From assembly GCF_003173335.1 (NCBI RefSeq), contig NZ_QGMZ01000007.1:1-64000 (forward strand): a stretch of DNA of 64,000 bases, in the 5' to 3' direction. Source of the stretch: Methanospirillum stamsii. GTDB taxonomy: Archaea > Halobacteriota > Methanomicrobia > Methanomicrobiales > Methanospirillaceae. How positions within the stretch are numbered: the stretch's first letter is position 1; each line of letters begins with the position of its first letter. Below are positions 1-18,004 of this stretch, in pieces. The notes under the pieces were generated by a model, which made no database searches, had not been told where the DNA came from, and worked only from the letters and a program-made list of their open reading frames with translations. A program made the position numbers and the translations under genes.

Positions 1-165
1 GCCAACAGTTTCAAGATATGAATTTGCTACCGCTGCTTTAAGCAAATCACGATTGTACTGAAAACCGGACAATCCTTTTGCAGGGTACTCAATATTTAGT
101 GCACGATCAACAAAAATATCCAATGTTTTTAGAGTTCTAAATAACCTACTCTGATTCAGAGTCAT
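1..165 (-). CDS. Partial protein coupled to the DUF2080 gene, possibly a transposase N-terminus
   Basis: The frame opens at base 165 and runs off the left edge, giving only 55 N-terminal residues (begins MTLNQSRLFRTLKTLDIF). Its ATG overlaps the stop of the upstream DUF2080 gene as ATGA, so the two are translated together. DUF2080 proteins are known as transposon-encoded companions of archaeal transposases, which makes a transposase the most likely identity. No catalytic motif lies in the visible part, so this is inferred from context only. It could also be an unrelated mobile-element gene. Confidence 0.45.
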   Translation of the reverse strand, partial: MTLNQSRLFRTLKTLDIFVDRALNIEYPAKGLSGFQYNRDLLKAAVANSYLETVG

Positions 166-314
166 TTTATGACCAAATAGACTGTTTTATCGAGATATTC
201 TTTAGGACAATCTACTTTTGCCCCATTCCCAAATTTTGTGACTTTTCTGACCAAGTACCCCTGGATGCCCTCAATTGTCAATCTGGTAGATGGTTCAATG
301 TCAATGGTTCGCAT
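162..314 (-). CDS. DUF2080-family transposon-encoded small protein
   Basis: A 50-residue protein starting MRTIDIEPSTRL. The core VTKFGNGAKVDCPKEYLDK fits the DUF2080 pattern, a short AbrB-like beta fold with an invariant FGNGA segment found in archaeal transposon-encoded proteins. Its stop overlaps the start of the next frame by ATGA. It may bind DNA and autoregulate the element, since two GTATATAC palindromes lie just upstream of its start. Family assignment is by motif only and the function is inferred. Confidence 0.65.
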   Translation of the reverse strand: MRTIDIEPSTRLTIEGIQGYLVRKVTKFGNGAKVDCPKEYLDKTVYLVIK

Positions 315-315
315 A

Positions 316-351
316 GTATATACAAAGTATATACTTTAAAATATTTAAAGT
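316..351 (-). promoter_or_regulatory. Promoter with twin GTATATAC palindromes ahead of the DUF2080 gene
   Basis: Two identical 8-bp palindromes GTATATAC sit at 316-323 and 327-334, three bases apart and directly upstream of the ATG at 314. An A/T-only block that can serve as a TATA element lies at 335-351. The palindromes would cover the transcription start, as expected of an autoregulatory operator. This is seen in the sequence; binding is inferred. Confidence 0.4.
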
Positions 352-533
352 TTCGTTGAATGTCGTTGACAAAAAAACCACTATAGAAGAAATAGTTCAG
401 TTTCCAATGGAGGTATCAGTTTCTTTCGGAGATACTGGTTGGAGGGCCATATTGTCTAATAATATTTTGAAGAATCTGAATACTTTGGAATGATGAATCC
501 ATAATACAGCATTAATTTATTGTGTTTTTTGAT
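352..533. other. Intergenic, imperfect inverted repeat only
   Basis: No gene is visible. An imperfect inverted repeat (CCAA at 404-407 with TTGG at 439-442; GTATC at 413-417 with GATAC at 431-435) could be a weak hairpin or the worn end of the mobile element to its left. No convincing matching terminal repeat or target-site duplication was found. Confidence 0.3.
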
Positions 534-812
534 TTATTTATACCATTTGAATAGCAACAAAATAAAACGTGTAAAAAAACACCCATGAGGCGGAGCCTCA
601 TGGGTGTTTTTATAATCTGAACTTACTTGATCGGTCCCAAAAAATCCAAGTATCATCCAGATACCTACTCCGAATACTAAAATAACACCCAAAATTAAAA
701 AATAATGAATTCTGGATCTCGGTTTGTCATATCTATGTGTTCTGGAATTTTGGATCTGTTCCTGCTGATTTGATCTTTGATACCGATCATTTTGTTCAAG
801 GATATCCTGTGT
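534..812 (-). pseudogene. Start-less fragment of a small membrane protein
   Basis: An open frame without an ATG, bounded upstream by a stop at 813-815, encodes a polar stretch rich in Gln/Arg/Asn, then one strongly hydrophobic segment (FLILGVILVFGVGIWMILGF) and DQVSSDYK. It then reads straight through the palindrome at 573-611 before stopping, which a functional gene is unlikely to do. It looks like the C-terminal half of a single-pass membrane protein, perhaps zinc-ribbon plus TM, whose start has been lost. Chance open frame is the alternative. Confidence 0.3.
573..611. terminator. Bidirectional hairpin terminator
   Basis: A perfect 13-bp stem (ACACCCATGAGGC with GCCTCATGGGTGT, loop GGA) is flanked by an A run on the left and a T run on the right, so it can act on both strands. 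It is the strongest hairpin seen in the window and sits between mobile-element debris on both sides. Confidence 0.7.
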
Positions 813-841
813 CTACGATATCCAGAGAATGGAGTATATCG

Positions 842-874
842 AAAAAACCCCCTTCCAACAAATGGGGGTTTATA
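842..874. terminator. Hairpin, possible terminator
   Basis: AAACCCCC (845-852) pairs with GGGGGTTT (864-871) around an 11-base loop, again with A- and T-rich flanks. It lies in decayed mobile-element sequence with no clear gene to terminate. Confidence 0.35.
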
Positions 875-1053
875 TATTCTTTATAAACTTGAGATTGCCA
901 AAAGGGGTTTTTTGCTATCCTCAATGATAATTCGTTACTATTTAGCCATACTTAAGATGAAATATACTTATTTGATTCCTATCTATCAATTCACCTTCAT
1001 TTGACCGAAAATTCTTAGTATTATGAGTCTAAACTTATTATTCAGATTGTGAT

Positions 1054-1466
1054 ATGGAAATTAGTAATGAGGAACAGGTACTAATCCGAAAATCCCATCC
1101 AATTATTATCGTTCTCATCGCTCGTTACTATCTCATATTTTAATGTTAAAAGAACGGGTTTTCGAATTGGAAAGTAGGAATAAAGAATTAGAAACCCGAT
1201 TAAATCTCAATAGCACAAATAGCAGTATTCCATCTTCGAAGAATCCATTAAATCACAAAAAAATTCCCAATAGTCGTGTCCCGAGTGGAAAGAAGTCAGG
1301 GGGACAGACTGGACATAAAGGAACCACATTAAAATCTATTGAGACAATCGACATTAAAATTAATCATGCACCAAAAGTTTGTTCAGGATGCGGCGCCACT
1401 GTTCAAACTGAGATTTTCCAGCTACTAAAAATGCTGGGGCCTGAGTGCGAAAAATTCTACACCTAA
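1054..1466 (+). pseudogene. IS66-type transposase, N-terminal remnant with frameshift
   Basis: A frame from ATG 1054 (MEISNEEQVLIRK) ends at 1141-1143, and a second frame from 1143 continues with a coiled coil (VFELESRNKELETRLNLNS), the TNSSIPSSKNP segment and a zinc-finger-like HAPKVCSGCGATV. This order is that of the N-terminal region and zinc-binding domain of IS66-family transposases. The full family length is several hundred residues with a DDE core, none of which follows: the frame stops at 1466 and continuation appears in another frame to about 1498. The element is dead, truncated and frameshifted. Confidence 0.75.
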
Positions 1467-1579
1467 TCAAAGTTCTGGCGAATGTGGGATAAATGAGAAA
1501 AATGTCTGAATTCTAAATTTCAATTAATTAATTATAGTGCATTGAACGGCTGAATAAAAAAATATTAGTAATTTTTGTC

Positions 1580-2749
1580 TTAACAACATTGATCAGCATG
1601 GTTACATTCCGGATGAGCATCTAAAGCCTCCTCATTAAGTGCGTATAACCACTGGCAACACGTTTCACATGATACGGTTTGTTCAATAGGTTTCATAGTT
1701 GGAGTAGGAGTTGGAGTTGGAGTTGGAGTAACTGTTGGAGTAAGATTTGAGGTAGCTGATGGGGTGGAATTTGTATCAATTTTTGATTGAATATTATTAA
1801 TTTTGGATTCCACTGAACCTTTGAAGGAATCAGGAAATGAATCCATTCCAATTGCAATTTTTAATGCATCAATAGCCTCTTCATATCTACCTAGTGCTTC
1901 TAGAACTCTACTTTTTTCTAGATAAACAGCACAATTTTCAGGATTGTTCGGGATAAATTTATTTTGATCTTCGAGTAACTCACCATAAGTTTTCTCAGTC
2001 ATTGGATCTATATCATTTTCCTGTGGAAAAACAGGGGCATTGATTTCAGATTTTATATTTGAAGATGGAAAAGTGTTAGAAGCTAATGGTTGATTTTGAA
2101 AATTACTAAAAATATTTGAAGGCCCTGATTCAGAATTTGACGAACTAATAATTATTGACCAATCGATATATTTATTATAATAAGTATTTGAGGGCTGGTT
2201 AGCTAGACTGTTTATACCAGATCCATATCCTATTGGTCCAGTTGATACTGATCTATCGGGATATATATTGGAAAAAGAATTCGATTGTTGATAATTATCA
2301 GGGCTTGTTTCTTGAGTGGCCTCACTAATTGTAACTGATGTATCAGAAGGATTGTCCACTTGTGTTTTTAATTGGGCTGCTATCTCCTTTGCTTTGGTGT
2401 TTGATTCATCAGCTTCCTCAATACGTCCAAGCATGCGAAGGATATTTGATTTAAAATCCCATAAACCAGGTAAATTTGGGTTTAATTTAATTGCCATATC
2501 AAAGGCTGTCAAGGATTTTTCTAAATCTCCTAAAATCATAAGAGCATACCCTTTTCCAGCCCAGACATCTGGAATAGTCGGATCCAATTCAATAGCCTGG
2601 TTAAAGTAATTAATTGCATTAAGATTTTCAGAAGCATTAAGGGCATTGTAACCTTCATCACACAATTCAAAAGCAGTTTCTGCCTGAACAATTGAGACAA
2701 GCGATGCAATTACACAGATAAAAAGGATTAAAAAAGGCTTTCTTTCCAT
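1580..2749 (-). CDS. Secreted TPR protein with Pro-Thr stalk and Cys-rich tail
   Basis: A 389-residue protein with an N-terminal signal sequence (about residues 5-23), two or three TPR units at about 30-125, a low-complexity Ser/Asn-rich middle, a further TPR-like unit at about 265-310, a Pro-Thr repeat at about 335-350 and a tail holding CETCC, PEC and QCC motifs. TPR units suggest protein contacts outside the membrane; the tail may bind metal or form disulfides. A TATA-like GTATATATGG at 2770-2780 on this strand implies a nearly leaderless transcript. It is separated by 145 bases from the signalling genes upstream, so membership in that locus is possible but unproven. No enzymatic function is visible. 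Confidence 0.75.
   Translation of the reverse strand: MERKPFLILFICVIASLVSIVQAETAFELCDEGYNALNASENLNAINYFNQAIELDPTIPDVWAGKGYALMILGDLEKSLTAFDMAIKLNPNLPGLWDFKSNILRMLGRIEEADESNTKAKEIAAQLKTQVDNPSDTSVTISEATQETSPDNYQQSNSFSNIYPDRSVSTGPIGYGSGINSLANQPSNTYYNKYIDWSIIISSSNSESGPSNIFSNFQNQPLASNTFPSSNIKSEINAPVFPQENDIDPMTEKTYGELLEDQNKFIPNNPENCAVYLEKSRVLEALGRYEEAIDALKIAIGMDSFPDSFKGSVESKINNIQSKIDTNSTPSATSNLTPTVTPTPTPTPTPTMKPIEQTVSCETCCQWLYALNEEALDAHPECNHADQCC
1698..1743. repeat. Hexanucleotide repeat encoding the Pro-Thr stalk
   Basis: Near-perfect GTTGGA repeats on the + strand (TCCAAC on the coding strand) encode alternating Pro-Thr. Such tracts can expand or contract by slippage in units of two residues, changing stalk length without a frameshift. 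Confidence 0.7.
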
Positions 2750-2894
2750 AAATAGTAATAAATAATTAAGTATATATGGTTATTTAATTGATTTTAAAAA
2801 CTGTGCCGCTAAATAAATATGATATATATATAATTAAGTATTTTTTATGGTAATTGGGTATGATATTTCTTTATTAGTTAGGATACCATCATGT

Positions 2895-4181
2895 TTAACG
2901 ATTCAATAATTCCATTGTAATTTTGACATATTCTCCTTGATAAGTAATTATAAGGTCTTCAGTTTTTGATAATTTATAGATTTTTTCATAACCCGGATTT
3001 CCCTGAGAATCACTACCTGCAAAAACCCCGAATCCATTTTTTTTCCCAAATCCATCATGAATTATTTCTTTGTTGTTTCCATTTAATACTTGAAAATCAA
3101 TCCATGAACCTGGAGAAAAATGCCGTGATTTTACACATTCTATTTGGGACTCTTTTTCTGAACAAAATTCTTCATTTATGAATTTTGGATAACATGTTAT
3201 AATGATATTCTTAGAGGGTTTATCCATTTTCCAGGTAAATGTATCACTTACTACGTCATTACTATTAAAAAAGTTTTTTTCATAAAAAAAGTTTGAGTTT
3301 TGTACTGAAGTTAAAGGATGTGAAGAAGTAGGTATGGGTGTTGTCTTTATCACTCCATTTTGCAATTTCTCTACAGAATTACCTGCCATAGACACAGCAA
3401 TTAATAACCCTAAAATAAACAGGCCGGAAAGCACTGCACCTATGATAAATTGAGTTGTATGATCGCTAGTCTGTGAGATTGGGTTCGACACGTTTTTTTG
3501 TTGGATTTTTTTCTTTTCACTATTATATGCGGTTGAATTCGGTTTCTGTGGTTTATTGCGATAAATTTTTTCCGGAGTCCTTATTTCTGGTCTCGGATGC
3601 GAAGGCAAATTTTCTGGGTTGACATCAATAATATTCGATAGTTTTTTTTCCGTGACATCACCATCCCCAGAGATTTGAAGAGTCACTGAATAGGTTCCAG
3701 GATTTTTATATGTATGAACTGGATTTACCTCTGCAGAGGTTTCACCGTCTCCAAAAATCCATTTATATTCTGTAACTGTCCCTTCACTTCTATTAGTAAA
3801 ATGAACCTGAAGTGGAGCAGTCCCGTTAACTGGTGTTATAGAAAAATCCGCAACGCATGGTTGTTTTTGATATAATCCAAGTGCCTGGCCCCAACCTTCA
3901 ATTGCCCATGTGGCTGCATTAATATCAATACCAAAATTCGTGTGAAGGTAGGTCACCAGCTGATTACACAGAATATCAAACGGAGTCTGTTGACCCTCTT
4001 TCATCAGTCTGAAAACCAAACCCTGTTCCAAGGGTAATTTTAACAGGTTTAACTCACGGGGATAATCGACCAAAAGATCCTGCATGAGTCCTTTGTACAT
4101 ACTAATATTTGACTCAGTAGGAGGACCGTATTTTACAATAATGTCCTTAAGAATCTGAATACTCTGGTTTAATGGATCCAT
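2895..4181 (-). CDS. Membrane protein: helical N-domain, PKD domain, TM segment, extracytoplasmic beta domain
   Basis: 428 residues. Residues 1-105 form a helical domain (starts with LKDIIVKYGPP, ends with WAIEGWGQALGL) that resembles an N-terminal domain I know from many bacterial multidomain signalling proteins; I cannot name the family with certainty. A PKD domain follows at about 110-190 (KWIFGDGE and HTYKNPGTYSVTL are diagnostic). A basic Lys/Gln/Asn linker leads to one TM helix at about 245-266, then a beta-rich domain of about 150 residues. It starts 22 bases after the PP2C gene, so it is probably co-transcribed with the vWA and PP2C genes as a membrane output or sensor. The PKD domain lies on the same side as the cytoplasmic-looking N-domain, unusual for a domain usually found on surface proteins. 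Confidence 0.75.
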   Translation of the reverse strand: MDPLNQSIQILKDIIVKYGPPTESNISMYKGLMQDLLVDYPRELNLLKLPLEQGLVFRLMKEGQQTPFDILCNQLVTYLHTNFGIDINAATWAIEGWGQALGLYQKQPCVADFSITPVNGTAPLQVHFTNRSEGTVTEYKWIFGDGETSAEVNPVHTYKNPGTYSVTLQISGDGDVTEKKLSNIIDVNPENLPSHPRPEIRTPEKIYRNKPQKPNSTAYNSEKKKIQQKNVSNPISQTSDHTTQFIIGAVLSGLFILGLLIAVSMAGNSVEKLQNGVIKTTPIPTSSHPLTSVQNSNFFYEKNFFNSNDVVSDTFTWKMDKPSKNIIITCYPKFINEEFCSEKESQIECVKSRHFSPGSWIDFQVLNGNNKEIIHDGFGKKNGFGVFAGSDSQGNPGYEKIYKLSKTEDLIITYQGEYVKITMELLNR

Positions 4182-4203
4182 ATTATCACTTCACAGCAAA
4201 TAT

Positions 4204-5742
4204 TTAGGTGGATTTTGAAGAGTTATTTCGAAAATTTTGTTCAATCGTATGGTTAATTGTTGGAATAATATTCGTTGAATCAGCCTTTTTATTCATTGGT
4301 AAAAAACCATAAGATTCATTAGATGACCTATTCAAATCCTGAAAACTACTATTAAATTGAGTTGAATTATTTACTCTCTCGAATATCACACTGGAAGAGT
4401 TGTTATGAAATTCTTGTATTTGATGTATGGAACTCAAATTCGAGAAATTTGATTCGTTCATAACCGGAATTGGAAAATTTGTAAAATTATAATCCACGAA
4501 TGATGAATTATTTGTAACTTCAGAGGAGTTTGGTGATATCATGGAGGTAATTTGAGGAGCAAAAAACCCGGATTGGATCAAACCTATTCCACAAACACAA
4601 AGAATCAAAATACTAATGGTGGAAATGAACATTTTTCCTTTTGAAATACGTTTCTTCTTTTTTAATGTTTCTTTTTTTTGAACCTGCTCTCTTATGGGAT
4701 TATCTTCAATAACATCCGGTTTTTGTTCAACAGGATTAACTGGAATCTCCAAAGGTACTTCATCATGAGGTTCTGGAGATTGAATTGTCTCCTTTGGTAC
4801 CAAAAACGAATAACTATGAGGCTCCGGAGTAACCGGATTTATAATAAAAATTTCCTCGTTCAACTCTTTTCTGTTGATATTCGACTCTCTTTCCGGATCC
4901 TGGGCCATAATGATAAGAGTAATGTCATCCCCACTTCCTTTCTGGGTGGTTGTAGTTAACCATTGATGGATATTTGATTCGATTGAGTGCACTCCTGCAT
5001 CAAAGTCATCAGCCTTAAAAATGTAGGAATAAAAATCACGTGCAGCGGTGAAGAAACCTTCCTCATCGATAAATGAATTTGTGTATCCATCAGTAGATAG
5101 CATGATAAAGTCAGGGATAAAATCTAACCGTTTGACCTTAAAGTCCCTCCAGGATTCATGCATACAAAGGGAATGCGTCTCATTACCTGTGATACTTTTA
5201 TCCGGAGAAATGGGCTGAAAAAATGATCCATCTGGTGAATGGATGATAATATCGCCATCACCAAGTTGGAAAAAAATACTCTGCTCATTGGTAATTAACG
5301 TTGCAAGGAGTGTTGATCCATATGGGCGGATTTGTGAGTAGTCAGGATCAACCGGAGTATTAAACTTAAGACCTTTTTTTCCCTCTTCAATTATTACCCA
5401 TTCATTATCATTATACGGATACTTTTGAATATCCAATAATACCTCTCGTCTCCATTCTAAAACGATCTCCTTGCAGATCATCTCGCTGAAATGTGAGCGT
5501 GCTAGTGTTGGCTCCTGTGCAACAAACCGGGATAGAACTCTGATTGCGACTTCGACAGCAAATGCAGATCCCCGGTCACTTCGGAAATAGTCTTTTCCTC
5601 CATGACCATCTGCAACTGCACCAATCAGAGGATATCCATTATTATCTTGTTTTAATCCCCCGTTATCCTGGTTAGGCCGATTCTTCCGGATATGTGAATG
5701 TCCTGTTACCGAATCAGCGATTATTCTCCACATATTATGCAT
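4204..5742 (-). CDS. Membrane-anchored PP2C-family Ser/Thr protein phosphatase
   Basis: 512 residues. The PP2C core spans about 1-285 with the metal-binding motifs RPNQDN (Asp26), VADGHGG (Asp45), GSTLLATL, QLGDGD, LSTDGY and GDDITLI in the correct order. A Pro/Glu/Lys linker follows, then a single TM helix at about 370-392 and a roughly 115-residue tail very rich in Asn, Ser and Thr, presumably outside the cell and a target for N-glycosylation. The enzyme would remove phosphate from Ser/Thr at the inner membrane face. It lies 12 bases after the vWA gene, and opposes the kinase encoded at 7035. ATG 5733 is an alternative start three codons downstream. PP2C plus vWA plus kinase is the TerY-P triad composition. 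Confidence 0.88.
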   Translation of the reverse strand: MHNMWRIIADSVTGHSHIRKNRPNQDNGGLKQDNNGYPLIGAVADGHGGKDYFRSDRGSAFAVEVAIRVLSRFVAQEPTLARSHFSEMICKEIVLEWRREVLLDIQKYPYNDNEWVIIEEGKKGLKFNTPVDPDYSQIRPYGSTLLATLITNEQSIFFQLGDGDIIIHSPDGSFFQPISPDKSITGNETHSLCMHESWRDFKVKRLDFIPDFIMLSTDGYTNSFIDEEGFFTAARDFYSYIFKADDFDAGVHSIESNIHQWLTTTTQKGSGDDITLIIMAQDPERESNINRKELNEEIFIINPVTPEPHSYSFLVPKETIQSPEPHDEVPLEIPVNPVEQKPDVIEDNPIREQVQKKETLKKKKRISKGKMFISTISILILCVCGIGLIQSGFFAPQITSMISPNSSEVTNNSSFVDYNFTNFPIPVMNESNFSNLSSIHQIQEFHNNSSSVIFERVNNSTQFNSSFQDLNRSSNESYGFLPMNKKADSTNIIPTINHTIEQNFRNNSSKST

Positions 5743-5754
5743 ATTTTAGAAATC

Positions 5755-6519
5755 CTACCAGACCAGGTCATTATAGGAAGTATTCGAGGTATTAATCTGG
5801 TTGGGAGGACCAATTTGTGGTGGTTTAAAGGTTGGTACATCAAGAGTGGGCTTTTGAGATGATAGTGCAGGAGTTGAGTCGGAGGTTTGATCTGGTGAAA
5901 AATATTCCCGTGAGGCATATTGAAGCACTTCTGTTGAAGCCCATTTGATGTAGTTAATAAGCTGTTGAGGATTACTTGCATTCAGCAATGCAATTTCGTC
6001 AAATCCAATAAATCTTCGGAGTACGTCTGTATCTGCATCTGCTCCAATTGCAATGGCTATCCTCACAGCCTTATTTCCCCAAGACTCCCCCATTAATGCT
6101 CGTAATCCTTTATCAAAATCATCAGTTGGATGACCATCAGATATGAGGACAATAACTGGTGGTAAAGCGCGCTTTGGCATTGGAGGTACCTTCAGTTCTT
6201 CTGCAATCGTTTTTAATGCCGCACCCATGTCTGTCACTCCATCTGCAGATAGATCTGTCCATGAATATTGTTCAATCGGAATCAATGAGGAATTCATCCA
6301 CTTTGCTCCACTACCAAAGGCGAGAGTTCTCGCAAATACCTGGGCATTAGGATTCTGGGTTGCAACATTTTTCATGAGGGGAAGAGCTTCACGAATAGCA
6401 TAATTCAATTGTTCAATTTTCCCCCTACCTTTCATAGACGATGAAACATCACATACCCAATAAAAATGAAGTGGTCGCGTTGCTAGTTGACCGCCTGGCA
6501 TATTGAGCTGATTAGACAT
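5755..6519 (-). CDS. TerY-like von Willebrand factor A domain protein
   Basis: 254 residues. The vWA fold covers about 15-205 with an intact MIDAS metal site: DVSSS (Asp24, Ser26, Ser28), the Thr in DGVTDMG, and the Asp in LISDGHPTDD. The surrounding FYWVCDVSSSMKG and the order of blocks match the TerY group of cytoplasmic vWA proteins. TerY proteins are known to occur with a PP2C phosphatase and a kinase (TerY-P triad), exactly as here. The last 50 residues are Pro/Ser-rich and disordered, perhaps the phosphorylated part. It is first in a vWA-PP2C-PKD gene run. A TATA-like element at 6556-6566 fits this strand. A generic vWA protein is the alternative. Confidence 0.85.
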   Translation of the reverse strand: MSNQLNMPGGQLATRPLHFYWVCDVSSSMKGRGKIEQLNYAIREALPLMKNVATQNPNAQVFARTLAFGSGAKWMNSSLIPIEQYSWTDLSADGVTDMGAALKTIAEELKVPPMPKRALPPVIVLISDGHPTDDFDKGLRALMGESWGNKAVRIAIAIGADADTDVLRRFIGFDEIALLNASNPQQLINYIKWASTEVLQYASREYFSPDQTSDSTPALSSQKPTLDVPTFKPPQIGPPNQINTSNTSYNDLVW

Positions 6520-7034
6520 ATAATCAGATTTAGTAATTTATTAGAAATAAGTTGTGATTTATATCGTCTTTAGGCATATTGGGTATATTATACTTTAAAT
6601 TTAAAAATAATGCTAAAATGTCAGATTTTATTATAATTGTCTTTACTCTTATGCACTTTTTTGTTGCCCTAATGAGGCATTTTTTTCCATGAAGTAAATA
6701 TGTAATTGAAAAGAATTCTGTTACTATTTTGCATAATTCTTATATTCGAGTAATTTTTGAATTTAATATTTGAGAAATTCATTTGGTAAAAAAGCCAGCC
6801 TGAAAAATTTTCGTCGGAGGTAGTTTTAATTTTTTTTAAATTTTCTTGATATATAGTTATAGATTTTTTAGATTTTTTTTACTCAGTTTTTTAGGTATTC
6901 AACACGATTATCTTAATGTATGGAGTCGTTGAAATTGAGTCAAAGTTTTCTTATGTCCCCTTCATTAACTTACAAAAAAATGATTAAATTACTAATACTG
7001 TTATACTCATTAGTTGTTGTAAAAGAGTAATATC
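6520..7034. promoter_or_regulatory. Divergent promoter region of the signalling locus
   Basis: 515 A/T-rich bases separate the leftward vWA-PP2C-PKD genes from the rightward kinase. A TATA-like GATTTATATCG at 6556-6566 serves the left operon (about 40 nt ahead of its ATG). TGTTATACTC at 7000-7009 lies about 26-35 nt ahead of the kinase ATG, predicting an almost leaderless transcript. The middle of the region holds no frame with coding character on either strand; its length is generous for two promoters. Confidence 0.45.
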
Positions 7035-8372
7035 ATGACATATAATCAATGTTTTAACATTGGCGATATAATCACTTCGCAATCCGGAATTGCCCTTGTT
7101 ATTAAAGAATATATAGGAGAGGGAGGACAAGGTCAGGTTTATGAAGTTGAATCAGGCAGGAAAAAATGGGCTCTTAAGTATTATACTAAAGGTAACTTTG
7201 CCACTCCCGGACATATGGAAAATTTGAAGAATCTCATTGAGATTGGTTCACCGAATCAAACTTTTTTATGGCCAATTGATCTGGTTCAAAAACCCGGAGA
7301 TTCTTCTTTTGGTTACATTATGCCATTACGACCTCAAAATTTTTCAAACCTTATTGATTATGTAAAAAGGAGAATAAATCCCACATTCTATTCTATCATT
7401 ACAGCATCTTTCAATCTTGCAGATAGTTTCTCTAAGTTACATGCTCAGGGATTATGTTATCGAGATATATCTTTGGGAAATGTATTTTTTGATTCAATTT
7501 CAGGAAACATTCTTATTTGTGATAATGACAATATTTGCTATAATAATTCTCAAAACGGTTCAGGCATTGGAGGAACTGCAGGTTTTATTGCACCTGAGAT
7601 TGTAATGGGAAAAACATTCCCAAACCGTAATACTGATCTCTATTCACTATCTGTCCTTCTTTTTCATTTGCTATTTATCTCTCATCCATTAAATGGAATC
7701 AGAGAATCTCAAACTGAATGCTGGGATCCTGAAGTTGAAAAGAAAATCCATGGCTCTGAAGCATTATTCATTTTTGATCCTGATAATGATGCAAATCGAC
7801 CGGACCCCGCAATCCATCAAAATGCAATAATGTTCTGGAACCTCTATCCAAATTCAATAAAAAAGTATTTTATCAAGTCATTCACTGAAGGGCTTTTCAA
7901 TCCTGAAAATGGACGTGTTAGGGAGAATGAATGGAAAAGCGCTTTGATTGAATTGCGTGACTCAATTTTTTATTGTTCACATTGTGGTAGTCAGGTTTTT
8001 TTTGATCCAGGTATGATTAAAAATTCTTCAGCCTCTATGAAAAATTGCTGGCAGTGTAATACTCCTCTTAACATTCCTCCAAGAATCAAAATTGGAATGA
8101 ATGGAGTTACCCTTCTAAATTCAGATACTTATCTCTATTTACATCATCTGAATCCAACCAGTTTTGATGTTACAACACCAATTGCCAAGGTTTCTAAGCA
8201 TCCGAATTTAGAATTATATGGTCTTCAAAACCTTACTGAGCAAAATTGGATTGTATTATCTAAAGATGGAAAAACAGGGGATGTTCCACCACAAAAAAAT
8301 GCACTTCTTCAAGATGGAGTTATCATTGATTTTGGCTCCGTTAAAGGAGAAATTCGATTCGGTGAAAACTGA
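7035..8372 (+). CDS. Ser/Thr protein kinase with zinc ribbon and FHA-like domain (TerY-P type)
   Basis: 445 residues. Kinase core at about 25-300: glycine loop GEGGQGQVY (29-37), ATP-binding Lys48 in WALKYY, catalytic loop YRDISLGN (Asp about 142), DND in place of DFG, and TAGFIAPE. The catalytic-loop Lys is replaced by Ser and the metal motif Phe-Gly by Asn-Asp, known variations in this kinase group. A zinc ribbon (YCSHCG at about 315, CWQC at about 337) precedes a beta domain at about 365-445 with GLQNLTEQNW, a phosphopeptide-binding FHA-like signature. It should phosphorylate Ser/Thr on partners such as the vWA or PKD protein. It is divergent from those genes across 515 bases and low in G+C like them. 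Confidence 0.88.
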   Translation: MTYNQCFNIGDIITSQSGIALVIKEYIGEGGQGQVYEVESGRKKWALKYYTKGNFATPGHMENLKNLIEIGSPNQTFLWPIDLVQKPGDSSFGYIMPLRPQNFSNLIDYVKRRINPTFYSIITASFNLADSFSKLHAQGLCYRDISLGNVFFDSISGNILICDNDNICYNNSQNGSGIGGTAGFIAPEIVMGKTFPNRNTDLYSLSVLLFHLLFISHPLNGIRESQTECWDPEVEKKIHGSEALFIFDPDNDANRPDPAIHQNAIMFWNLYPNSIKKYFIKSFTEGLFNPENGRVRENEWKSALIELRDSIFYCSHCGSQVFFDPGMIKNSSASMKNCWQCNTPLNIPPRIKIGMNGVTLLNSDTYLYLHHLNPTSFDVTTPIAKVSKHPNLELYGLQNLTEQNWIVLSKDGKTGDVPPQKNALLQDGVIIDFGSVKGEIRFGEN

Positions 8373-8770
8373 AATAGTGAATTATTTCATTAATCGTTTT
8401 CCTTTTTTCTAACATTTTCCTAAAATTATTCAGTAAAAACGTAACAAATTTTTCTAGATAAAACTTAAAAACGGAAGTTTATCTGGTGAACTCTTCCTTA
8501 TTTTTAATAATCGGAAAAGAAGGCTTATCTAAAAATTTCAGCAATGGCCTTCTAAAAATATGGATCAGATCTTTATTGCATTAGAGAGCGGATGGATAAA
8601 TTCAGGGATGAAAAAAGGGCTGTAGAGATAGATAATGCCATCTTTACAAGAAACTAAATTCACTTCCAAAAAATAATTCTCCATTCTGTGTTGAATTAAT
8701 TATTCTGGAATATCTTTCCCGGAAGATCTGAACAAAACTGGTCCGGTTCTTGAGATCAGATGTACTAATA
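8373..8770. other. Intergenic, no gene seen
   Basis: The first 60 bases are T-rich and probably terminate the kinase transcript. The remainder, between two genes that converge, shows only short frames (the longest plausible, from 8561, has about 20 codons). No repeat or RNA gene was recognised. Confidence 0.5.
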
Positions 8771-9289
8771 CTATGATTGTTCTATTAAGGCACGATGAAA
8801 ATCCCGATACATCGGAATTGAATCTGATTGTTTTCTAATGGTCCGGGTAAACCCGTATTTTTCATAGAAACCAAAAGAACCCGGTTTCACATCAACGGTT
8901 AAAATCCTGCATCCAACATGGTGAGATAAATTAATCGCGGTTACCAGAATTTTAAGTAGCATGTTTTTACCAATATTCCTTTTCTTAAACCGATCATCAG
9001 TTGCAAGTCGCGCAATTTTTAGAGCAGGGTATCGTGAATATGGATATCCGCGAATTCCATCATCTTCCTGAATTCCACGAACTTCAATGCTATCCGAGAT
9101 GAGGGTATAAAAACCCACCAATATTTTATCCCAATACACCAGATGAGTCACTGATATCCGGTTTTTTTGACTGTCGAGTGCATCATATTTTAAAAAACCT
9201 TCAAGATCTTTCTCACAACAACTAAAACCGGAAAGATCATCATCAGATGAAAGAATCGAAAAGGTGAGTTCTTCTTTTGATATCTTCAT
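8771..9289 (-). CDS. GNAT-family acetyltransferase, probable toxin of a type II pair
   Basis: 172 residues with the GNAT fold: an acceptor-side start (FSCCEKDLEGFLKYDA), beta-strand THLVYWDKILVGFYTLI, acetyl-CoA segment LKIARLATDDRFKKRNIGKNML and the late FYEKYGFTR motif. The sequence pattern and size are like TacT/AtaT-type toxins that acetylate aminoacyl-tRNA. Its ATG overlaps the stop of a 49-codon gene as ATGA, the usual antitoxin-first arrangement. The conserved pyrophosphate-loop Arg/Gly is present as RNIGKN. A housekeeping acetyltransferase is possible, but the context favours a toxin. Confidence 0.78.
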   Translation of the reverse strand: MKISKEELTFSILSSDDDLSGFSCCEKDLEGFLKYDALDSQKNRISVTHLVYWDKILVGFYTLISDSIEVRGIQEDDGIRGYPYSRYPALKIARLATDDRFKKRNIGKNMLLKILVTAINLSHHVGCRILTVDVKPGSFGFYEKYGFTRTIRKQSDSIPMYRDFHRALIEQS

Positions 9290-9435
9290 TTAAGATAGGA
9301 GTTTTTCGCCTCTTCATAGGCTTCCAACAGTAATTTCTTACCTTCAGGGGTATCTGTGGGATTACGTATGTACCTATGGAAGGTGAGTGCATCTTCACCA
9401 TCAAGAATAAGTCCGAGTTCAATTGGTTTAGCCAT
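9286..9435 (-). CDS. Small partner of the GNAT protein, probable antitoxin
   Basis: A 49-residue protein, MAKPIELGLILDGEDALTFH at the start, with a short beta-like N-terminus, the segment RNPTDTPEGKKL and an amphipathic helix LLLEAYEEAKNSYLK. Its stop codon overlaps the GNAT start (ATGA), which indicates coupled translation. It lacks the ribbon-helix-helix (DUF1778) character of the antitoxins usually paired with TacT-type toxins, so the pair may be a different class. Identity as antitoxin is inferred from size, order and overlap. Confidence 0.7.
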   Translation of the reverse strand: MAKPIELGLILDGEDALTFHRYIRNPTDTPEGKKLLLEAYEEAKNSYLK

Positions 9436-9600
9436 ATATACTTAAGACATATTGAAAATGAAATACGATAATAGTATCACAAAAGTACTTTGTCTTTGAT
9501 GAATGGCTCTTCTGTGAAAAAATGAACTCATTGTAATCTTGAATGCCTTATACAATGGGCAATTTACCTGTGAAAAGAAGTTTTATTTAGCCTTTTCATT

Positions 9601-9957
9601 CTAAATAAATTCATGTTTTTCAAGTTCCTGCCAGGCGATCATGGCAACCGTTGTACTATTACTGACAGCAGCTCCGATACTCTTCATTGCCTGATCATAA
9701 TCATTACTCTCAACAAGACTGATAGCCTGGTTCAGGTTGTCGATTGACTTTTGAAATTCCTGATTATTAGTTGCCCGGAGAGCAAACTGAAGTTCTATCC
9801 GGACTGATTCAAGGCACTGAAGGACGATCTTTTTTCCGCCGGTGCGTTCAGCATCTTTGAGACCTGAAAGCACCGTTACCAGTTGTGAAGCGATGATTAA
9901 TTCAGATTTAGCCCGTTCACCATACTGGTATGCAGAAACGGCACCTTTTTTGTCCAT
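9601..9957 (-). CDS. Helical hypothetical protein
   Basis: 118 residues, predicted almost entirely alpha-helical and soluble, starting MDKKGAVSAYQYGERAKSEL and containing LESVRIELQFALRATNN and AISLVESNDYDQAMKSIG. It resembles a small four-helix bundle. I do not recognise the family. It is a monocistronic gene downstream (leftwards) of the DUF5350 gene, with normal codon use for the core part of the window, which marks the boundary of the A/T-rich region. Confidence 0.65.
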   Translation of the reverse strand: MDKKGAVSAYQYGERAKSELIIASQLVTVLSGLKDAERTGGKKIVLQCLESVRIELQFALRATNNQEFQKSIDNLNQAISLVESNDYDQAMKSIGAAVSNSTTVAMIAWQELEKHEFI

Positions 9958-10543: not shown

Positions 10544-12388
10544 TCAGGGTGTATTGAGAACCTGGGATATGGCCTCGCGGAGTATCTGGTTTACAATCTT
10601 TCCATCTACAGATCCCCGCACTTCTTTCATCACAATGCCCATTACCGGGCCTGTTGCTGCATTTCCGCGCTCTTTGATGAAGTCAGATCGTTCAGTAACA
10701 ATACGCCTGATGATGGCTGCAAGTTCATCTTCAGAAACTTTTGGAGCTGCAATTGCACAGGCTTCATCCGGAGACTTCCCTTCGGAGAGCGCTTTGAGGA
10801 TTGGGGAGAGTGCTTCCTTTGCAACATCTCCGGATTGAATGGACTGAAGAATTTTCCCGATATCCTCATCATCAATCCGGCTTACCTGTGCACCTTCACG
10901 GCTGAGTTCACGAAGTGTAGAGTTAAAGGCACGTTCTGCAAGGGCCGGTTTTATCCCTGCAGCAATTGCCTCTTCAAAGGCACTTCTCCGTTCTGAATAC
11001 GCCATCTGCCTGGCAACTTCCTTTGTAAGACCATAGTCTTTCAGATACCGGGAGATGGTGTCATCAATCATCTCCGGAACTTCGAGGGCTTCGAACCGTT
11101 CTCTGGTAACTCTGACCTGGAAGACATCGGTCTCCGGATACATCCTGGCAGCTCCCGGAAGCGGTCGCATATAAGCAGTTGACCCACCTTCGAGCATCTT
11201 TCTGGTCTCTTTTGCCACTCCTTCAAAAGCCATCTCTGCCCTTCTGATGATCTGTTTCATTGCACACTGACACCGCTGCGGTTTGTCTGCAACAATGATG
11301 ACACAATCCTGTTCCTCAGCAGAGAGTGCAGCCTTTAGTTTTGCAACTTCTTCTTCGGTGACTCCGTAAGCCGGAAGTTCATCGGTATGGAAAAGCCCGC
11401 CAACTCCGCACTTCTTGGCATAATCAGACATCTCACTCCCAAGTCTGCGTCCGGGCTGAATTTCACGGCCGACAAGTCCGGCAAATCCGTTCAGTTTGAT
11501 GCCCAGGATCATCGGGGCTTTTTTAAGGACTCTGCTGCCACATTCGGCAAAGAGAGCTGTCACATCAACCGGAGTCTTCTCTATTGAGGCTCCCCGTCTT
11601 TTAAGTTCTTCCCTGATTTCGAGGAGAGCGACCTGACGCTGCACCTCTCTCCTGACGACTTCAGCGATGAGGTCAAGTTCCTGCACTCCCTTTATCTCAA
11701 CCCGTGCTCCTTCACGGATGGAGATATTGATGTCCTGCCTGATAGTTCCAAGCCCGCGTTTGACCCTTCCGGTTGACCGGAGGATCATCCCTATCTGTGC
11801 TGCGGTCTCCTGGACTGCTTCCGGAGTATGCATACAGGGACTGGTGGTGATCTCAATGAGCGGGATTCCAAGACGGTCCAGTGAGAAGAAGGTATCTTCA
11901 ATCCGTTGTGCTGCTTCTTCTTCCAGACAGACGGTCTCTATCTCCGCTCCTCCGGGAAGTGTTCCGTTCATTGCGACAAGAGCAGTACGCTGAAAACCGC
12001 TGGTGTTAGACCCGTCGATAACAAGTTTTCTCATCGTATGGATCTCAGGGACCGGTGTCATACCGCAGACCTTTGCTATTGTCAGGACGATGTCAAGGGC
12101 CTCATTATTGAGCGGGGCCGGAGGTTCCTCATCATTCTCCACAAGACAGGTGGTATCATAAGTCAGGTACCGAAATTGTCTGACCTGCATCATCTCTTCT
12201 TCAGCAGCCCGGTCAAGTTCACCCATCTCACTTTTTGTTGCCCGGAGGTACCGGAAAAACTCCCCGGTTGAATCTTCAGTCTCCCGGATCGTGGTCGGAC
12301 ACCGGCAGAACAGTTTCTCTTTTGTATTCAGCTGCTGGTGGATCTCAATACCGGCGATAAGCCCGAGAGCCTGATAATCGTCACTCAT
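10544..12388 (-). CDS. gatE: Glutamyl-tRNA(Gln) amidotransferase subunit E
   Basis: 614 residues, the usual length for archaeal GatE. With GatD it converts Glu-tRNA(Gln) to Gln-tRNA(Gln), the only route to that tRNA in archaea. Recognised by GLIAGIEIHQQLNTKEKLFCR, KLVIDGSNTSGFQRT, the GTIRQDINISI segment and the C-terminal YqeY-like helical region (about 480-614). The stop of gatD overlaps its ATG (ATGA), ensuring equal synthesis of both subunits. It is third in an argH-gatD-gatE run. Confidence 0.96.
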   Translation of the reverse strand: MSDDYQALGLIAGIEIHQQLNTKEKLFCRCPTTIRETEDSTGEFFRYLRATKSEMGELDRAAEEEMMQVRQFRYLTYDTTCLVENDEEPPAPLNNEALDIVLTIAKVCGMTPVPEIHTMRKLVIDGSNTSGFQRTALVAMNGTLPGGAEIETVCLEEEAAQRIEDTFFSLDRLGIPLIEITTSPCMHTPEAVQETAAQIGMILRSTGRVKRGLGTIRQDINISIREGARVEIKGVQELDLIAEVVRREVQRQVALLEIREELKRRGASIEKTPVDVTALFAECGSRVLKKAPMILGIKLNGFAGLVGREIQPGRRLGSEMSDYAKKCGVGGLFHTDELPAYGVTEEEVAKLKAALSAEEQDCVIIVADKPQRCQCAMKQIIRRAEMAFEGVAKETRKMLEGGSTAYMRPLPGAARMYPETDVFQVRVTRERFEALEVPEMIDDTISRYLKDYGLTKEVARQMAYSERRSAFEEAIAAGIKPALAERAFNSTLRELSREGAQVSRIDDEDIGKILQSIQSGDVAKEALSPILKALSEGKSPDEACAIAAPKVSEDELAAIIRRIVTERSDFIKERGNAATGPVMGIVMKEVRGSVDGKIVNQILREAISQVLNTP

Positions 12389-13617: not shown

Positions 13618-15125
13618 AATTGTGCGATTCTCCGTGCCTGTGTGATTAATTCCTGAATTGATTCTGTAATCTTTGTTCTCTTATCCAAAACCAGTTCCCT
13701 GTCCTGTGCAAGTACTTCTCTTCTGTCCTGAAGTGAAGAACTGACCATCTCCGGAGCAGGTCCTCCGGGAAGATTCCGGACTGAAAGGGATCTTGTCACC
13801 GAAAGAGCGGATGTTATTTTTTCCTGGGTAAGGCCGAGTGAAGAGAGTCTTTCTCCATGGAATTCTTCTGCTGCCCTGTCAAGAGTTGCAAGGTCCAGTG
13901 CCCCTTCTTTTACCGCTCTTCCCACGATATGGTGAGCAGTTCTGAAAGGAATATTATACTCCCTTACCAGGGTGTCAGCCAGTTCAGTTGTGGTGCTTCC
14001 ACCCTTTCCCGCTTCCTCTTCCATACGGCTGAGGTTAAATTCTGCCGTTGCAATCATCCCGGCCAGGAGATCCAGGTCTCTTCTCACGTCAATGATTCCC
14101 CGCCAGAGGTGGGGGTTAAGGTCCTGCATATCCCGGTTGTATGCCATGGGCAGTCCTTTCATGATAGTGACTGCTGATACAAAACTCCCAAGAAGTGTCC
14201 CGGATCGTGATCTTAAAATCTCTGCAACGTCCGGGTTTTTCTTCTGTGGCATAATGGAACTCGTGGAGCAGTACCGGTCATCAAGGGTGACAAACCTGAC
14301 AAATGACGAACTCCAGATGATCAATTCTTCGCAAAACCGGGAAACATGTGTTATGAGCATCGTGTCGCAGGCAAGTACTTCCTCGGCAAAATCCCGCGAC
14401 GCAACTGCATCCATGGAGTTGCCCATGTATCCGTTAAAGCCTAAGAGTGCAGCAGTAAATTCCCTGTCCAGCGGATAGCCGGTTGATGCAAGTGCTGCAG
14501 ATCCAAGAGGAGAATAATTCACCCGGAAAAGGGCCTCTATGAGCCGGTCAAAGTCCCGTGCAAAGATCTGCTCATACGCAAGCAGATGGTGGGCCAGGGT
14601 AACCGGCTGTGCATGCTGCAGATGAGTAAATCCGGGCATCACAGATGTTACATTCTCTGATGCAACGTTAAGCAGCACTTCCCGAAGTCGTGCAAGTGCC
14701 TCAAGCTGGTCAAGAACAGTATCCCTTGTCCGGATACGAAGACAGGTGGCAACCTCGTCATTGCGTGACCGGCCGATGTGCAGTCTGCCTCCTGCATCCC
14801 CTCCGGTCTTTCGTGTCAGGATGGTTTCAATTCCTGCATGAATATCCTCAAAAGAAGGATCATATGCATCGGCAGGGACTCCGGATTCGTACATCATAAG
14901 AAGTTCCCGCATCAGGGTTTTAGCATGTACCTCACTTACGACCTTCTGTCTGGTCAGCATCAAAAGATGCGCCATATCGACCAGAACATCTGAAGAAGCA
15001 ATATTCCTGTCCGCCTCCATGGAAGAGAGGAGTGATTCGATATCTTCAGTTCTCTTCCCGGAGAGCCGTGCCTTTCTGACGACATCTCTGGTCATAATCC
15101 CGTACTTCTTTCTTCTGAGGATCAT
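13614..15125 (-). CDS. argH: Argininosuccinate lyase
   Basis: 503 residues from ATG 15125. Cleaves argininosuccinate to arginine and fumarate, last step of arginine synthesis. Diagnostic blocks are HIGRSRNDEVATCLRIRTRD, FTHLQHAQPVTLAHHL (catalytic His) and the signature SSIMPQKKNPDVAEILRSR. An upstream ATG at 15152 would add nine hydrophobic residues, but GGTG lies seven bases ahead of 15125, so the shorter start is chosen. The partner argG is about 32 kb away at 47244. Fumarate released here can enter the fum-kor-suc pathway. Stop overlaps gatD as ATGA. Confidence 0.95.
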   Translation of the reverse strand: MILRRKKYGIMTRDVVRKARLSGKRTEDIESLLSSMEADRNIASSDVLVDMAHLLMLTRQKVVSEVHAKTLMRELLMMYESGVPADAYDPSFEDIHAGIETILTRKTGGDAGGRLHIGRSRNDEVATCLRIRTRDTVLDQLEALARLREVLLNVASENVTSVMPGFTHLQHAQPVTLAHHLLAYEQIFARDFDRLIEALFRVNYSPLGSAALASTGYPLDREFTAALLGFNGYMGNSMDAVASRDFAEEVLACDTMLITHVSRFCEELIIWSSSFVRFVTLDDRYCSTSSIMPQKKNPDVAEILRSRSGTLLGSFVSAVTIMKGLPMAYNRDMQDLNPHLWRGIIDVRRDLDLLAGMIATAEFNLSRMEEEAGKGGSTTTELADTLVREYNIPFRTAHHIVGRAVKEGALDLATLDRAAEEFHGERLSSLGLTQEKITSALSVTRSLSVRNLPGGPAPEMVSSSLQDRREVLAQDRELVLDKRTKITESIQELITQARRIAQL

Positions 15126-15187
15126 TAATGCCCACCGGAGTAATGCCGGCATCCGAAGAACTCATTGATATGATTTCGTCCGATTAC

Positions 15188-15198
15188 GATTATACAAA
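15188..15198 (-). promoter_or_regulatory. argH: TATA-like element for argH-gatD-gatE
   Basis: On the minus strand the sequence reads TTTTTGTATAATCG, an A/T-rich archaeal TATA candidate. A transcript would begin near 15167, leaving a leader of about 40 bases to the ATG at 15125 and excluding no candidate start. Confidence 0.4.
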
Positions 15199-15228
15199 AA
15201 GGGCACAAAAATCAGAAAAAATGCCCTT
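15199..15228. promoter_or_regulatory. Inverted repeat AAGGGCA-N16-TGCCCTT in divergent promoter
   Basis: Perfect 7-bp arms at 15199-15205 and 15222-15228 lie between the argH promoter and the TATA box of the transporter. Position and symmetry suggest a repressor or activator site controlling one or both directions. No known regulator consensus was recognised. Confidence 0.45.
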
Positions 15229-15234
15229 AAAGGA

Positions 15235-15257
15235 TTTATATCGACCTCATTTGAGGT
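15235..15257 (+). promoter_or_regulatory. TATA box and ACCTCA-TT-TGAGGT operator of the ABC transporter
   Basis: TTTATATC at 15235-15242 is a good archaeal TATA box. It is followed at once by a perfect palindrome, ACCTCA (15244-15249), TT, TGAGGT (15252-15257), lying between TATA and the expected start near 15265. A protein bound there would block assembly of the transcription machinery, so a repressor site is the natural reading. Confidence 0.5.
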
Positions 15258-15300
15258 ACTTTAAAAAGAAGTATTTCCTACCTTAGTCCAGGTGATTGTG

Positions 15301-16314
15301 TTGAAGAACATATGGTTCATTGTTTCTCTCTTTCTCATCACTGGTCTGGTACTTCTGTGCGGATGTACCGGCACTCAGGAAACAGCCCCGGTTGCAGATC
15401 AAAAAACCACAACCGGAGAAAAAACAGTTCTTAATGTCGGGTATCAGCCAAGTACGCATCAGATGGCATTCATGACCGCGTACAGCAAGGGCATGTATAA
15501 TGAAACCCTGGCTCCAATGGGAATAAAAGAAGTAAAAGCCTTCAGTTTCCCGACAGGAGCTCCTGAAATGCAGGCAATGCTCGCAGGAGATCTTGACTTT
15601 GCCTATGTTGGTTCTGCACCGTTTGTAACCGCCGTTGCCACCGGACTTGACGGGAAGATCATCGGCGCTGTCCAGACCCAGGGGTCATCACTCGTTCTGA
15701 AGACCGGTCTGAATTATACTGCTCCGGCAGATCTGAAAGGTCTGACCATTGCAACATTCCCGGCAGGAACAATCCAGGATACAATTCTGCGCACCTGGCT
15801 GAAAGAGCAGGGAATTGATACAGAAAAAGACCTTAAGATTGTTGGAATGGGTCCTGGTGACGCAACCACTGCAATCATGGCCGGAAAAGTTGATGCAGTC
15901 TTCCTCCCCGCTCCTTCACCAACAACCATCGAAGAAGCTGGAGCAGGAAAAATCATCGTTCAGTCTGGTGAGATGAGTCCGAACCATGCATGCTGTGTTC
16001 TTGTTGCAAGCGGAAAAATGATCAAGGAACACCCGGAGATAGTGGAAGAAGTCTTGAGAATTAACCAGCAGGCGACCGATTATAATAATGAGCACTGGGA
16101 AGAAGCAGCCGGATACATGAATGAGATGACCTCCATGGAAACGCCAATCATTCTCAAGTCTCTTGAAGAATGGGATGGAAAATGGGTATCTGATCCAAAC
16201 ATTATCCTGGAATCTGTCTCTAATTACGCAACCGATCAGGTCGCTCTCGGGTATATCAAAACACCTGTTTCTGCAGATGATCTCTTTGATACTACCTTCT
16301 GGGGTAAGCTGTAA
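15301..16314 (+). CDS. ABC transporter substrate-binding lipoprotein, nitrate/sulfonate/taurine type
   Basis: About 337 residues from TTG 15301, which sits six bases after the GGTG core of AGGTGAT; GTG at 15292 or 15298 would overlap or abut that site. An N-terminal signal sequence ends in a lipobox-like LLCGC. The mature part has the periplasmic-binding fold of the SsuA/TauA/NrtA group (LNVGYQPSTHQMAFM, FPTGAPEMQAMLAGDLDFAYVG). The ligand cannot be read from sequence: sulfonate, taurine, nitrate or a thiamine precursor are all possible. First gene of a three-gene transporter operon. Confidence 0.9.
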   Translation: MKNIWFIVSLFLITGLVLLCGCTGTQETAPVADQKTTTGEKTVLNVGYQPSTHQMAFMTAYSKGMYNETLAPMGIKEVKAFSFPTGAPEMQAMLAGDLDFAYVGSAPFVTAVATGLDGKIIGAVQTQGSSLVLKTGLNYTAPADLKGLTIATFPAGTIQDTILRTWLKEQGIDTEKDLKIVGMGPGDATTAIMAGKVDAVFLPAPSPTTIEEAGAGKIIVQSGEMSPNHACCVLVASGKMIKEHPEIVEEVLRINQQATDYNNEHWEEAAGYMNEMTSMETPIILKSLEEWDGKWVSDPNIILESVSNYATDQVALGYIKTPVSADDLFDTTFWGKL

Positions 16315-16397
16315 CGCTGAACCCATACCTTTTCTTTTTCTCTAACCTCAGTATACTGATTACCTGTGCCTGTTCACGGCACGTTGTGAGATAAGGA

Positions 16398-17183
16398 ATG
16401 AAAGGAAATCTTTCGGGATCCCGATCCCCTGGCTATATTGTCTTTTCAATATCAGTAGTGCTGATAATCTGGCAGATATTAGCAGATGTGATAGTCCAGA
16501 ACCGGTTTATTCTGCCGTCTTTTACCGATGTGGTCTTTGCGTTTTTTGGACTGCTCTCGGTTGGGACCCTCTCAATGGATTTTCTGGTGAGTATGGTTCA
16601 TTTCTTCATCGGCCTTGGTTTATCCATACTTGTCGGGGTTCCTTTGGGCATCCTTATCGGATGGTTTCCGCGGGCGAACCGGTTCCTGGACCCCATCATT
16701 GAAATTATTCGTCCTATCCCGCCACTTGCATGGATTCCCTTTGCAATTGTCTGGTTCGGGCTGACTGATCTGGCAGCGGGTTTTGTCATCTTTATTGGCT
16801 CGGTTTTTCCGGTACTGATAAATACCTACGAGGGGTTTCGAAATATTCCCCGGATATTTGTCGAGGCAGGAAAAATGCTTGGGTGCACGAGTAATGCTGC
16901 ATTGATTCGGCATATTGCCCTTCCTGCTGCTCTTCCACATCTTGCAGCCGGTTTTCGGGTTGCAAGCGGGGTAGCATGGATGTGTCTTGTGGCAGCCGAG
17001 ATGTTTGGAGTTTCAAAATTTGGTCTTGGACAGAAAATATGGTGGTATTACAACCTCCACCAGATGGACAATGTCATGGTGTATATGTTGATCCTGGGAT
17101 TTGTCGGCCTTATTATTGATTATCTCTTCAGGTATGCGATGAACAGGACACTTCTGAAGTGGCGTGAAGGGGAGGTGAACTGA
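16398..17183 (+). CDS. ABC transporter permease, SsuC/TauC family
   Basis: 261 residues with about six TM helices and the cytoplasmic EAA loop EAGKMLGCTSNAALIRHIALPAALPHL that docks on the ATPase. Forms the membrane channel for the substrate captured by the lipoprotein encoded upstream. There are 83 bases between the genes, with a pyrimidine-rich stretch at 16327-16345 that could partly terminate. The stop overlaps the ATPase start (TGATG). Confidence 0.92.
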   Translation: MKGNLSGSRSPGYIVFSISVVLIIWQILADVIVQNRFILPSFTDVVFAFFGLLSVGTLSMDFLVSMVHFFIGLGLSILVGVPLGILIGWFPRANRFLDPIIEIIRPIPPLAWIPFAIVWFGLTDLAAGFVIFIGSVFPVLINTYEGFRNIPRIFVEAGKMLGCTSNAALIRHIALPAALPHLAAGFRVASGVAWMCLVAAEMFGVSKFGLGQKIWWYYNLHQMDNVMVYMLILGFVGLIIDYLFRYAMNRTLLKWREGEVN

Positions 17184-17974: not shown

Positions 17975-17977
17975 AAG
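17967..17977 (+). promoter_or_regulatory. TATA box for the L10e gene
   Basis: ATTTATAAAAG lies across the stop codon of the ABC ATPase gene and about 30 bases ahead of the L10e ATG. A start near 17997 would give a leader of about eight bases, with AGGAG overlapping the start region. Confidence 0.5.
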
Positions 17978-18004
17978 CACAAATCAATACAGGAGTTCGG
18001 GTTC

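Follow-up and report, generated by a model that had tools for sequence, protein, structure and literature searches.

The first 64,000 nt of contig NZ_QGMZ01000007.1 from Methanospirillum stamsii (GCF_003173335.1; positions 1–64,000, hereafter the window) contain, at positions 2895–8372, a unit of four genes for a Ser/Thr kinase, a PP2C phosphatase, a TerY-like vWA protein and a membrane protein with a PKD domain; the N-terminal domain (ND) of the latter recurs beside the same three core genes in other archaea and in bacteria. The unit is intact, and open reading frame (ORF) coordinates and Pfam matches agree in placing the genes where the initial annotation of this DNA had them: those for the vWA protein (254 aa, 5755–6519), the phosphatase (512 aa, 4204–5742) and the PKD protein (428 aa, 2895–4181) on the minus strand, and that for the kinase (445 aa, 7035–8372) on the plus strand. 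Because the gaps in the ORF map are of just 12 bp between the vWA and PP2C genes and 22 bp between the PP2C and PKD protein genes, we read these three as an operon. A divergent gap of 515 bp lies between the vWA and kinase genes, and promoter or terminator signals in it were not above those of shuffled sequences.

The three core proteins retain their active-site residues. The kinase domain spans aa ~20–285 (Pfam Pkinase, E 6e-15) and is followed by a zinc ribbon (aa 314–341); its catalytic residues K48, D144, N149 and D163, as well as the ribbon cysteines C314, C317, C338 and C341, are invariant across an alignment of 63 kinases. The FHA-like tail proposed initially (aa ~347–445) is borne out as a fold by its predicted structure: the model of aa 296–445 (pLDDT 90.5) matches FHA structures with Foldseek (E 1.2e-3, prob 1.00) and with VIA-align (Z up to 9.8), and the 50 rows shown by the latter were all FHA domains or FHA-containing entries. 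The phosphatase matches PP2C_2 (E 3e-37) over a catalytic domain at aa 1–280, and its metal residues D45-G46, D218-G219 and D272-D273 are intact and 100% conserved in relatives. The vWA protein has an intact MIDAS (D24, S26, S28, T96, D128; at least 97% conserved in relatives) and matches the generic Pfam VWA model (E 3e-5) and, weakly and over 49 residues, the PADLOC TerY model (E 0.0066); a Pfam scan found no TerY_C domain on it. Kinase, phosphatase and vWA protein are encoded together in the window as well as in relatives and resemble the TerY-P triad, defined as a TerY-like vWA protein, a PP2C and a kinase with a zinc ribbon (Anantharaman et al., 2012, as given in PMC11090510), both in the presence of the three in one cluster, with the ribbon C-terminal to the Ser/Thr kinase, and in their conserved active sites; the FHA-fold kinase tail, an aromatic motif at the C-terminus of the vWA protein and a family of ND proteins with swapped payloads set the present system apart. 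The window genome has a further pair of kinase (a 1114-aa frame) and PP2C genes (G000:C2:191427–194032), of a different family.

The vWA protein ends in SYNDLVW (S248-Y-N-D251-L-V-W254; 5758–5778, minus strand) and its closest relative in TYNDLVW, two instances of a near-invariant C-terminal motif, [S/T]xx[D/E]-hydrophobic-[W/F]. The last residue is W or F in 71 of 72 relatives (W in 51, F in 20), D/E occupies position −3 in 67/72 and S/T position −6 in 50/72; related species were entered separately, so that fewer of these observations are independent than the counts imply. The [S/T]xx[D/E] pattern occurs in 53 of 69 tails, versus 18 (maximum 30) over 1000 shuffles of those tails. A C-terminal W is also found in several Methanoregula PP2Cs. 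FHA domains can favor an S/T-xx-D shape once its Thr is phosphorylated (Rad53-type), and this shape would also suit the site of an acid-directed kinase. From its sequence, the vWA tail (S248xxD251) is the best candidate for a phospho-site switched by the kinase and the phosphatase.

Linkage of ND with the core genes

The initial annotation regarded the PKD and membrane parts of the fourth protein as the addition to the triad. The fourth gene does co-occur with the triad, but the part of its product that is conserved is ND, about 105 aa (3870–4181, minus strand), and not the PKD domain (aa 120–179; 3645–3824; Pfam PKD_4, E 8e-16), which we consider its payload. The ND of the window protein matched no Pfam model at E<1, and together with 29 diverse relatives it gave no consistent Pfam or NCBIfam match, with scattered weak hits only; comparison to PDB sequences returned nothing credible (best E 0.018). 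ND is predicted to be a six-helix bundle (pLDDT 95.5). No PDB chain exceeded a VIA-align Z of 4.5 with this model, which excludes nothing, and we therefore make no claim of a relationship to Death-like domains or of a novel fold. ND was not found in viruses, either in IMG/VR (by pattern and tblastn) or in INPHARED. Likewise, no earlier account of ND came up in the literature searched, which did not cover Anantharaman 2012 and Gao 2020, so that priority is uncertain.

A vWA search of 232 genomes of the archaeal class gave 22 positives, and an ND-only search of the same genomes gave 19, most of them among the 22; the archaeal ND genes lie mostly within a few kb of the vWA gene. All 14 other complete methanogen triads located on one contig, as retrieved with the vWA query, have an adjacent ND gene, and the window makes 15. 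In Methanoregula and relatives the ORF maps show a fixed order, vWA-PP2C-kinase-ND; a genome of the same genus as the window has the order ND-kinase-vWA-PP2C plus two further ND genes. The initial view of such triads as mainly bacterial understates their presence in this archaeal class.

An ND scan of 84,980 species genomes, done with the tighter of two alignments (A2; the mixed alignment A1 was too divergent), retrieved 71 loci. These are from Gammaproteobacteria (Thiotrichaceae, Methylococcales, Competibacteraceae, Chromatiaceae), Chloroflexota, Acidobacteriota, Planctomycetota, Armatimonadota, Verrucomicrobia and Methanomicrobiales. Within the fetched DNA, 34 of the 62 non-redundant loci contain the three core genes, eight contain two, seven contain one and 13 contain none; for seven of these 13, the kinase is encoded elsewhere in the genome. 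Since this sample was chosen by ND, we ran a reverse, kinase-first test on 298 genomes from the class of an Anaerolineae member, which gave 14 positives. Of the 12 Anaerolineae loci read, three of which repeat loci already in the ND scan, 11 carry ND and the twelfth is cut at a contig end. An accidental gene cluster is thus ruled out by the regular linkage of ND with the triad in methanogens and Anaerolineae, homologs of the fourth protein adjoining the triad in archaeal genomes. Only 2/369 sampled genomes from the class of Crenothrix were positive, indicating that the system is rare and patchy.

The core proteins diverge together (Mantel r 0.94–0.95), and the divergence of ND follows that of the kinase (Mantel r 0.72 versus a null maximum of 0.18). 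In just two loci is ND joined in frame to a core protein: in L166 it is in frame with PP2C, and in a locus from Methylococcales (L128:9986–10885) it is fused straight onto a second TerY-like vWA domain. In the kinase tree, the window kinase and that of genome G204 are separate from other archaeal kinases, which suggests that they were acquired separately; both are long branches and their joining was flagged as unsafe. Two Anaerolineae loci (L193:5280–7976 and L194:7209–9761) have, adjoining the normal kinase, a doubled one composed of an ordinary kinase domain and a copy of the ND-linked kinase with an altered metal-binding motif, perhaps a pseudokinase regulator. A fifth conserved partner was sought among 2091 flanking ORFs and rejected, the top clusters being apparent antisense shadows of core genes and housekeeping neighbors in Methanoregula.

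The regularity of this linkage bears on whether the unit could be a plain TerY-P triad that responds to tellurite or metal stress, with the ND proteins incidental to it. This reading would account for the three activities and for the STK-zinc ribbon layout that defines TerY-P (PMC11090510), but the linkage is far too regular for it, the TerY match is weak and the vWA protein has no Pfam TerY_C, and we consider it very improbable. Neither Ter nor CoCoNuT genes were present among the Pfam-scanned neighbors. The antiphage TerY-P-like modules of Gao et al. (2020), as described in PMC11090510, have the same three core activities, but their kinase has an OB fold instead of the zinc ribbon plus FHA fold found here, and ND receptors are not mentioned in that description. 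Similar in domain content is an actinobacterial theme, GAP1-N2, with an active kinase-zinc ribbon-beta-rich domain protein, an active PP2C and a standalone vWA protein; it differs in sitting among GAP1-N2 GTPase genes, and an ND family is not described in the parts of that source that we consulted (PMC7159879).

Payloads and copies of ND

ND usually stands at the N-terminus, joined to around 20 unrelated payload families, and the 132 ND proteins group in 29 C-terminal clusters. Payloads include PKD, which was seen only in ND proteins from the window genome, HEAT, right-handed beta-helix, TPR, PQQ propeller, PEGA, zinc ribbons with TM (transmembrane) helices, LRR, MORN, the lectin-like Lcl_C and FGE-sulfatase, WD40, bacterial SH3, the MCP signaling domain, ankyrin, Clp_N, ClpX zinc finger and GYF, along with several unassigned regions. 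Those scanned are almost all binding modules, and no nuclease, protease, TIR or pore domain was found among the payload representatives scanned.

There are one to five ND genes per locus, often two to four. Median ND identity is 78% for pairs from one locus that bear different payloads, 43% for pairs that come from different loci but have a payload cluster in common, and 37% for the remaining pairs. Local NDs are nevertheless closer to each other than to their best match elsewhere in just 8/28 loci, and the idea that NDs from one locus are always mutual closest relatives fails. The sequences thus make the swapping of payloads onto one shared ND label clear only in some bacteria. In the Methylomonas plasmid CP157007 (L114), five NDs that are ~93% identical have five different partners. 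This locus is compact (15093–22522), with the order kinase-vWA-PP2C followed by the five ND genes, and in two of the proteins a Clp_N or ClpX zinc-finger piece sits N-terminal to ND. A plasmid from Prevotella (NZ_CP091789, L216, 8618–16379) encodes a TerY-C protein, a kinase, a vWA protein and a PP2C, and then two proteins, one of them with FGE, that have in common an N-terminal, helical-looking domain of ~110 aa, different from ND. This domain has a local profile match to the last helices of ND (P 1.2e-5), raising the question of whether it could be the Bacteroidota counterpart of ND.

One locus, from a proteobacterial metagenome-assembled genome (L185), has a reverse transcriptase ORF (5967–7073) with IGNLTSQ and YMDD motifs between two ND-FGE genes. 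A template repeat at 7908–8020 matches the 3′ ends of both genes (4909–5014 and 10602–10714), and 13/14 and 9/10 of the respective mismatches occur at template adenines, for which reason we identify the element as a diversity-generating retroelement (DGR). FGE domains have been recognized as DGR targets, and a function as antigen sensors has been put forward for targets of this kind (PMC10907252).

The nature of the payloads also bears on an alternative in which ND proteins are outputs: through phosphorylation or release, the core would act on effectors or decoys tethered by ND, and these would bind and block invader or host targets. In Kaur et al. (2020; PMC7159879), variable modules carried on effector-associated domains are interpreted as effectors or decoys, and the Clp_N, ClpX zinc-finger and MCP pieces, lacking catalytic or sensory parts, look like borrowed decoys. 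Against this are the preponderance of binding folds, with none of these four effector-type domains among the payloads scanned, and the proposed role of DGR targets as sensors (PMC10907252). We regard an output role as unlikely, albeit one to be kept in mind. Systems with an effector-associated domain (EAD) and MoxR-vWA ternary systems (PMC7159879, PMC8195603) likewise have a small tether domain common to several proteins of a locus, in many loci closer to its local paralogs, and joined to variable modules, and DGR-diversified sensors (PMC10907252) are similar in that their variable modules include DGR-mutated FGE. The core is of MoxR, STAND or GTPase type in those systems and of kinase, PP2C and vWA here. 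By this analogy, ND may work like an EAD.

The window genome contains one kinase of this family, one vWA gene and five NDs, one in the window, three on contig C39 and one on contig C50. The four ND proteins outside the window (L090, G000:C39, 7408–14494, and L091, G000:C50, 1567–3201) comprise one with zinc ribbons plus TM, one with five PKD domains plus TM, one with TM and an outer region, and a multi-PKD protein; genes for exported PQQ-repeat and TPR-Cys proteins are nearby. The ND paralogs of this genome are diverse, and only the three PKD types are close. A gene for an exported TPR protein lies 145 bp downstream of the window unit (1580–2749, minus strand), and its product has a Cys-rich C-terminus of the CETCC type in common with the TPR protein at L091 2–661. 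Each of these two genes adjoins an ND-PKD gene, and their products are possible outer partners or accessories.

Membrane topology and genomic context

The initial annotation had also proposed that the triad seems wired to the cell surface; in such a version, the PKD domain there would sense or adhere and signal inward through the kinase and the phosphatase. In the window, both the PP2C and the PKD protein are indeed predicted to be membrane-anchored. In the PP2C, a TM helix spans aa 366–384, with 8 K/R before it and 0 after it, and 17 of its 18 Asn-Xaa-Ser/Thr sequons fall in the ~130-aa tail behind this helix (aa 385–512; helix and tail at 4207–4647, minus strand), the layout that one would expect if the enzyme were cytoplasmic and its outer tail glycosylated. 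Neither the TM helix nor the sequon tail was seen in PP2Cs of relatives, in which TM calls at ~aa 145 were taken as hydrophobic core strands. In the PKD protein, the PKD domain precedes the TM helix (aa 245–263). A count over the 20 residues flanking this helix on each side gives equal positive charge, and one over ~45 residues gives more of it upstream; we therefore place ND and PKD probably inside, on the side of the kinase, and aa 264–428 outside (helix and C-terminal region at 2898–3449, minus strand). This C-terminal region had no relative among the fetched loci. Most ND proteins of other species are soluble, with a TM helix predicted in 35/132 overall, and carry unrelated payloads. Anchoring of the two proteins thus stands, but a surface PKD sensor is improbable and surface wiring would at most be a local version of the system. 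ND, the PP2C TM helix with its sequon tail, the C-terminal motif of the vWA protein and the four further NDs were absent from the initial annotation.

The unit sits in an A/T-rich accessory island (1–9604) whose outer end is not assembled. As the initial annotation had noticed, the region is A/T-rich and beside mobile debris: GC content is 35% up to ~9.9 kb and 46% beyond, and a truncated transposase-like fragment (DUF6444, Pfam) occurs at 1143–1466. In six genomes of the same genus, collinearity with the window begins only at 9605 and runs to the right, while these genomes stay collinear with each other across that point, so that the unit belongs to an inserted or rearranged segment that measures at least 9.6 kb. 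No assembly overlap was found for the ends of the window contig, C39 and C50. The island also contains a GNAT acetyltransferase gene (8771–9289), of a toxin-antitoxin toxin type by family resemblance only, and a near-perfect 20-bp hairpin followed by T-rich DNA (572–614), with no clear gene upstream of it in the assembled contig.

A proposed phospho-switch with interchangeable receptors

Our comparative analyses argue, with moderate confidence, for a TerY-P-type phospho-switch that reads interchangeable ND receptors, a core with plug-in receptors. According to this model, ND would dock each receptor protein onto the core of kinase, PP2C and vWA protein, and engagement of the payload, here the PKD domain and the TM-anchored outer region, would shift the balance between kinase and phosphatase on a substrate. 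This would most likely be the S/T-xx-D/E-hydrophobic-W/F tail of the vWA protein, whose phosphorylated form may be read by the FHA fold of the kinase or by another part of the core; the vWA protein, as a metal-dependent adaptor, would then gate an output. Because of the choice of payloads, the DGR of one bacterial locus, and the patchy location on islands and plasmids, we favor conflict with invaders or surface sensing over a housekeeping function, and the system probably plays a role in one or the other.

Several observations weigh against this switch model. At the vWA site Ser is commoner than Thr (38 versus 12), and canonical FHA domains bind Ser-type sites poorly. Additionally, at the phosphothreonine site of the kinase FHA fold, conserved His, Asn and Trp but no clear Arg or Ser were apparent by eye (alignment A4), and the phosphopeptide residues look degenerate. 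Triads without a nearby ND exist (L206, L209), indicating that ND is not obligatory in cis, and the model assumes that a single kinase serves all five NDs of the window genome. Enrichment of defense genes in the vicinity was not shown, and no toxic effector turned up. Finally, we know of no interaction, phosphorylation or phenotype for ND.

A broader proposal, which we make more tentatively than that of the switch itself, is that ND defines an undescribed class of recognition systems, in which one switch serves swappable and partly hypermutated ND receptors and signals via the SxxD-hydrophobic-W phospho-motif of the vWA protein. Comparative genomics has established TerY-P triads, some of which are antiphage, and a dedicated family of swappable receptors would in principle answer what these triads sense. 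Likewise, receptors mutated by a DGR would link kinase signaling to hypervariable recognition, and the archaeal members, including that of M. stamsii, indicate that the system is not confined to bacteria. If true, the broader proposal would amount to an immune-like receptor repertoire extending across archaea and bacteria.

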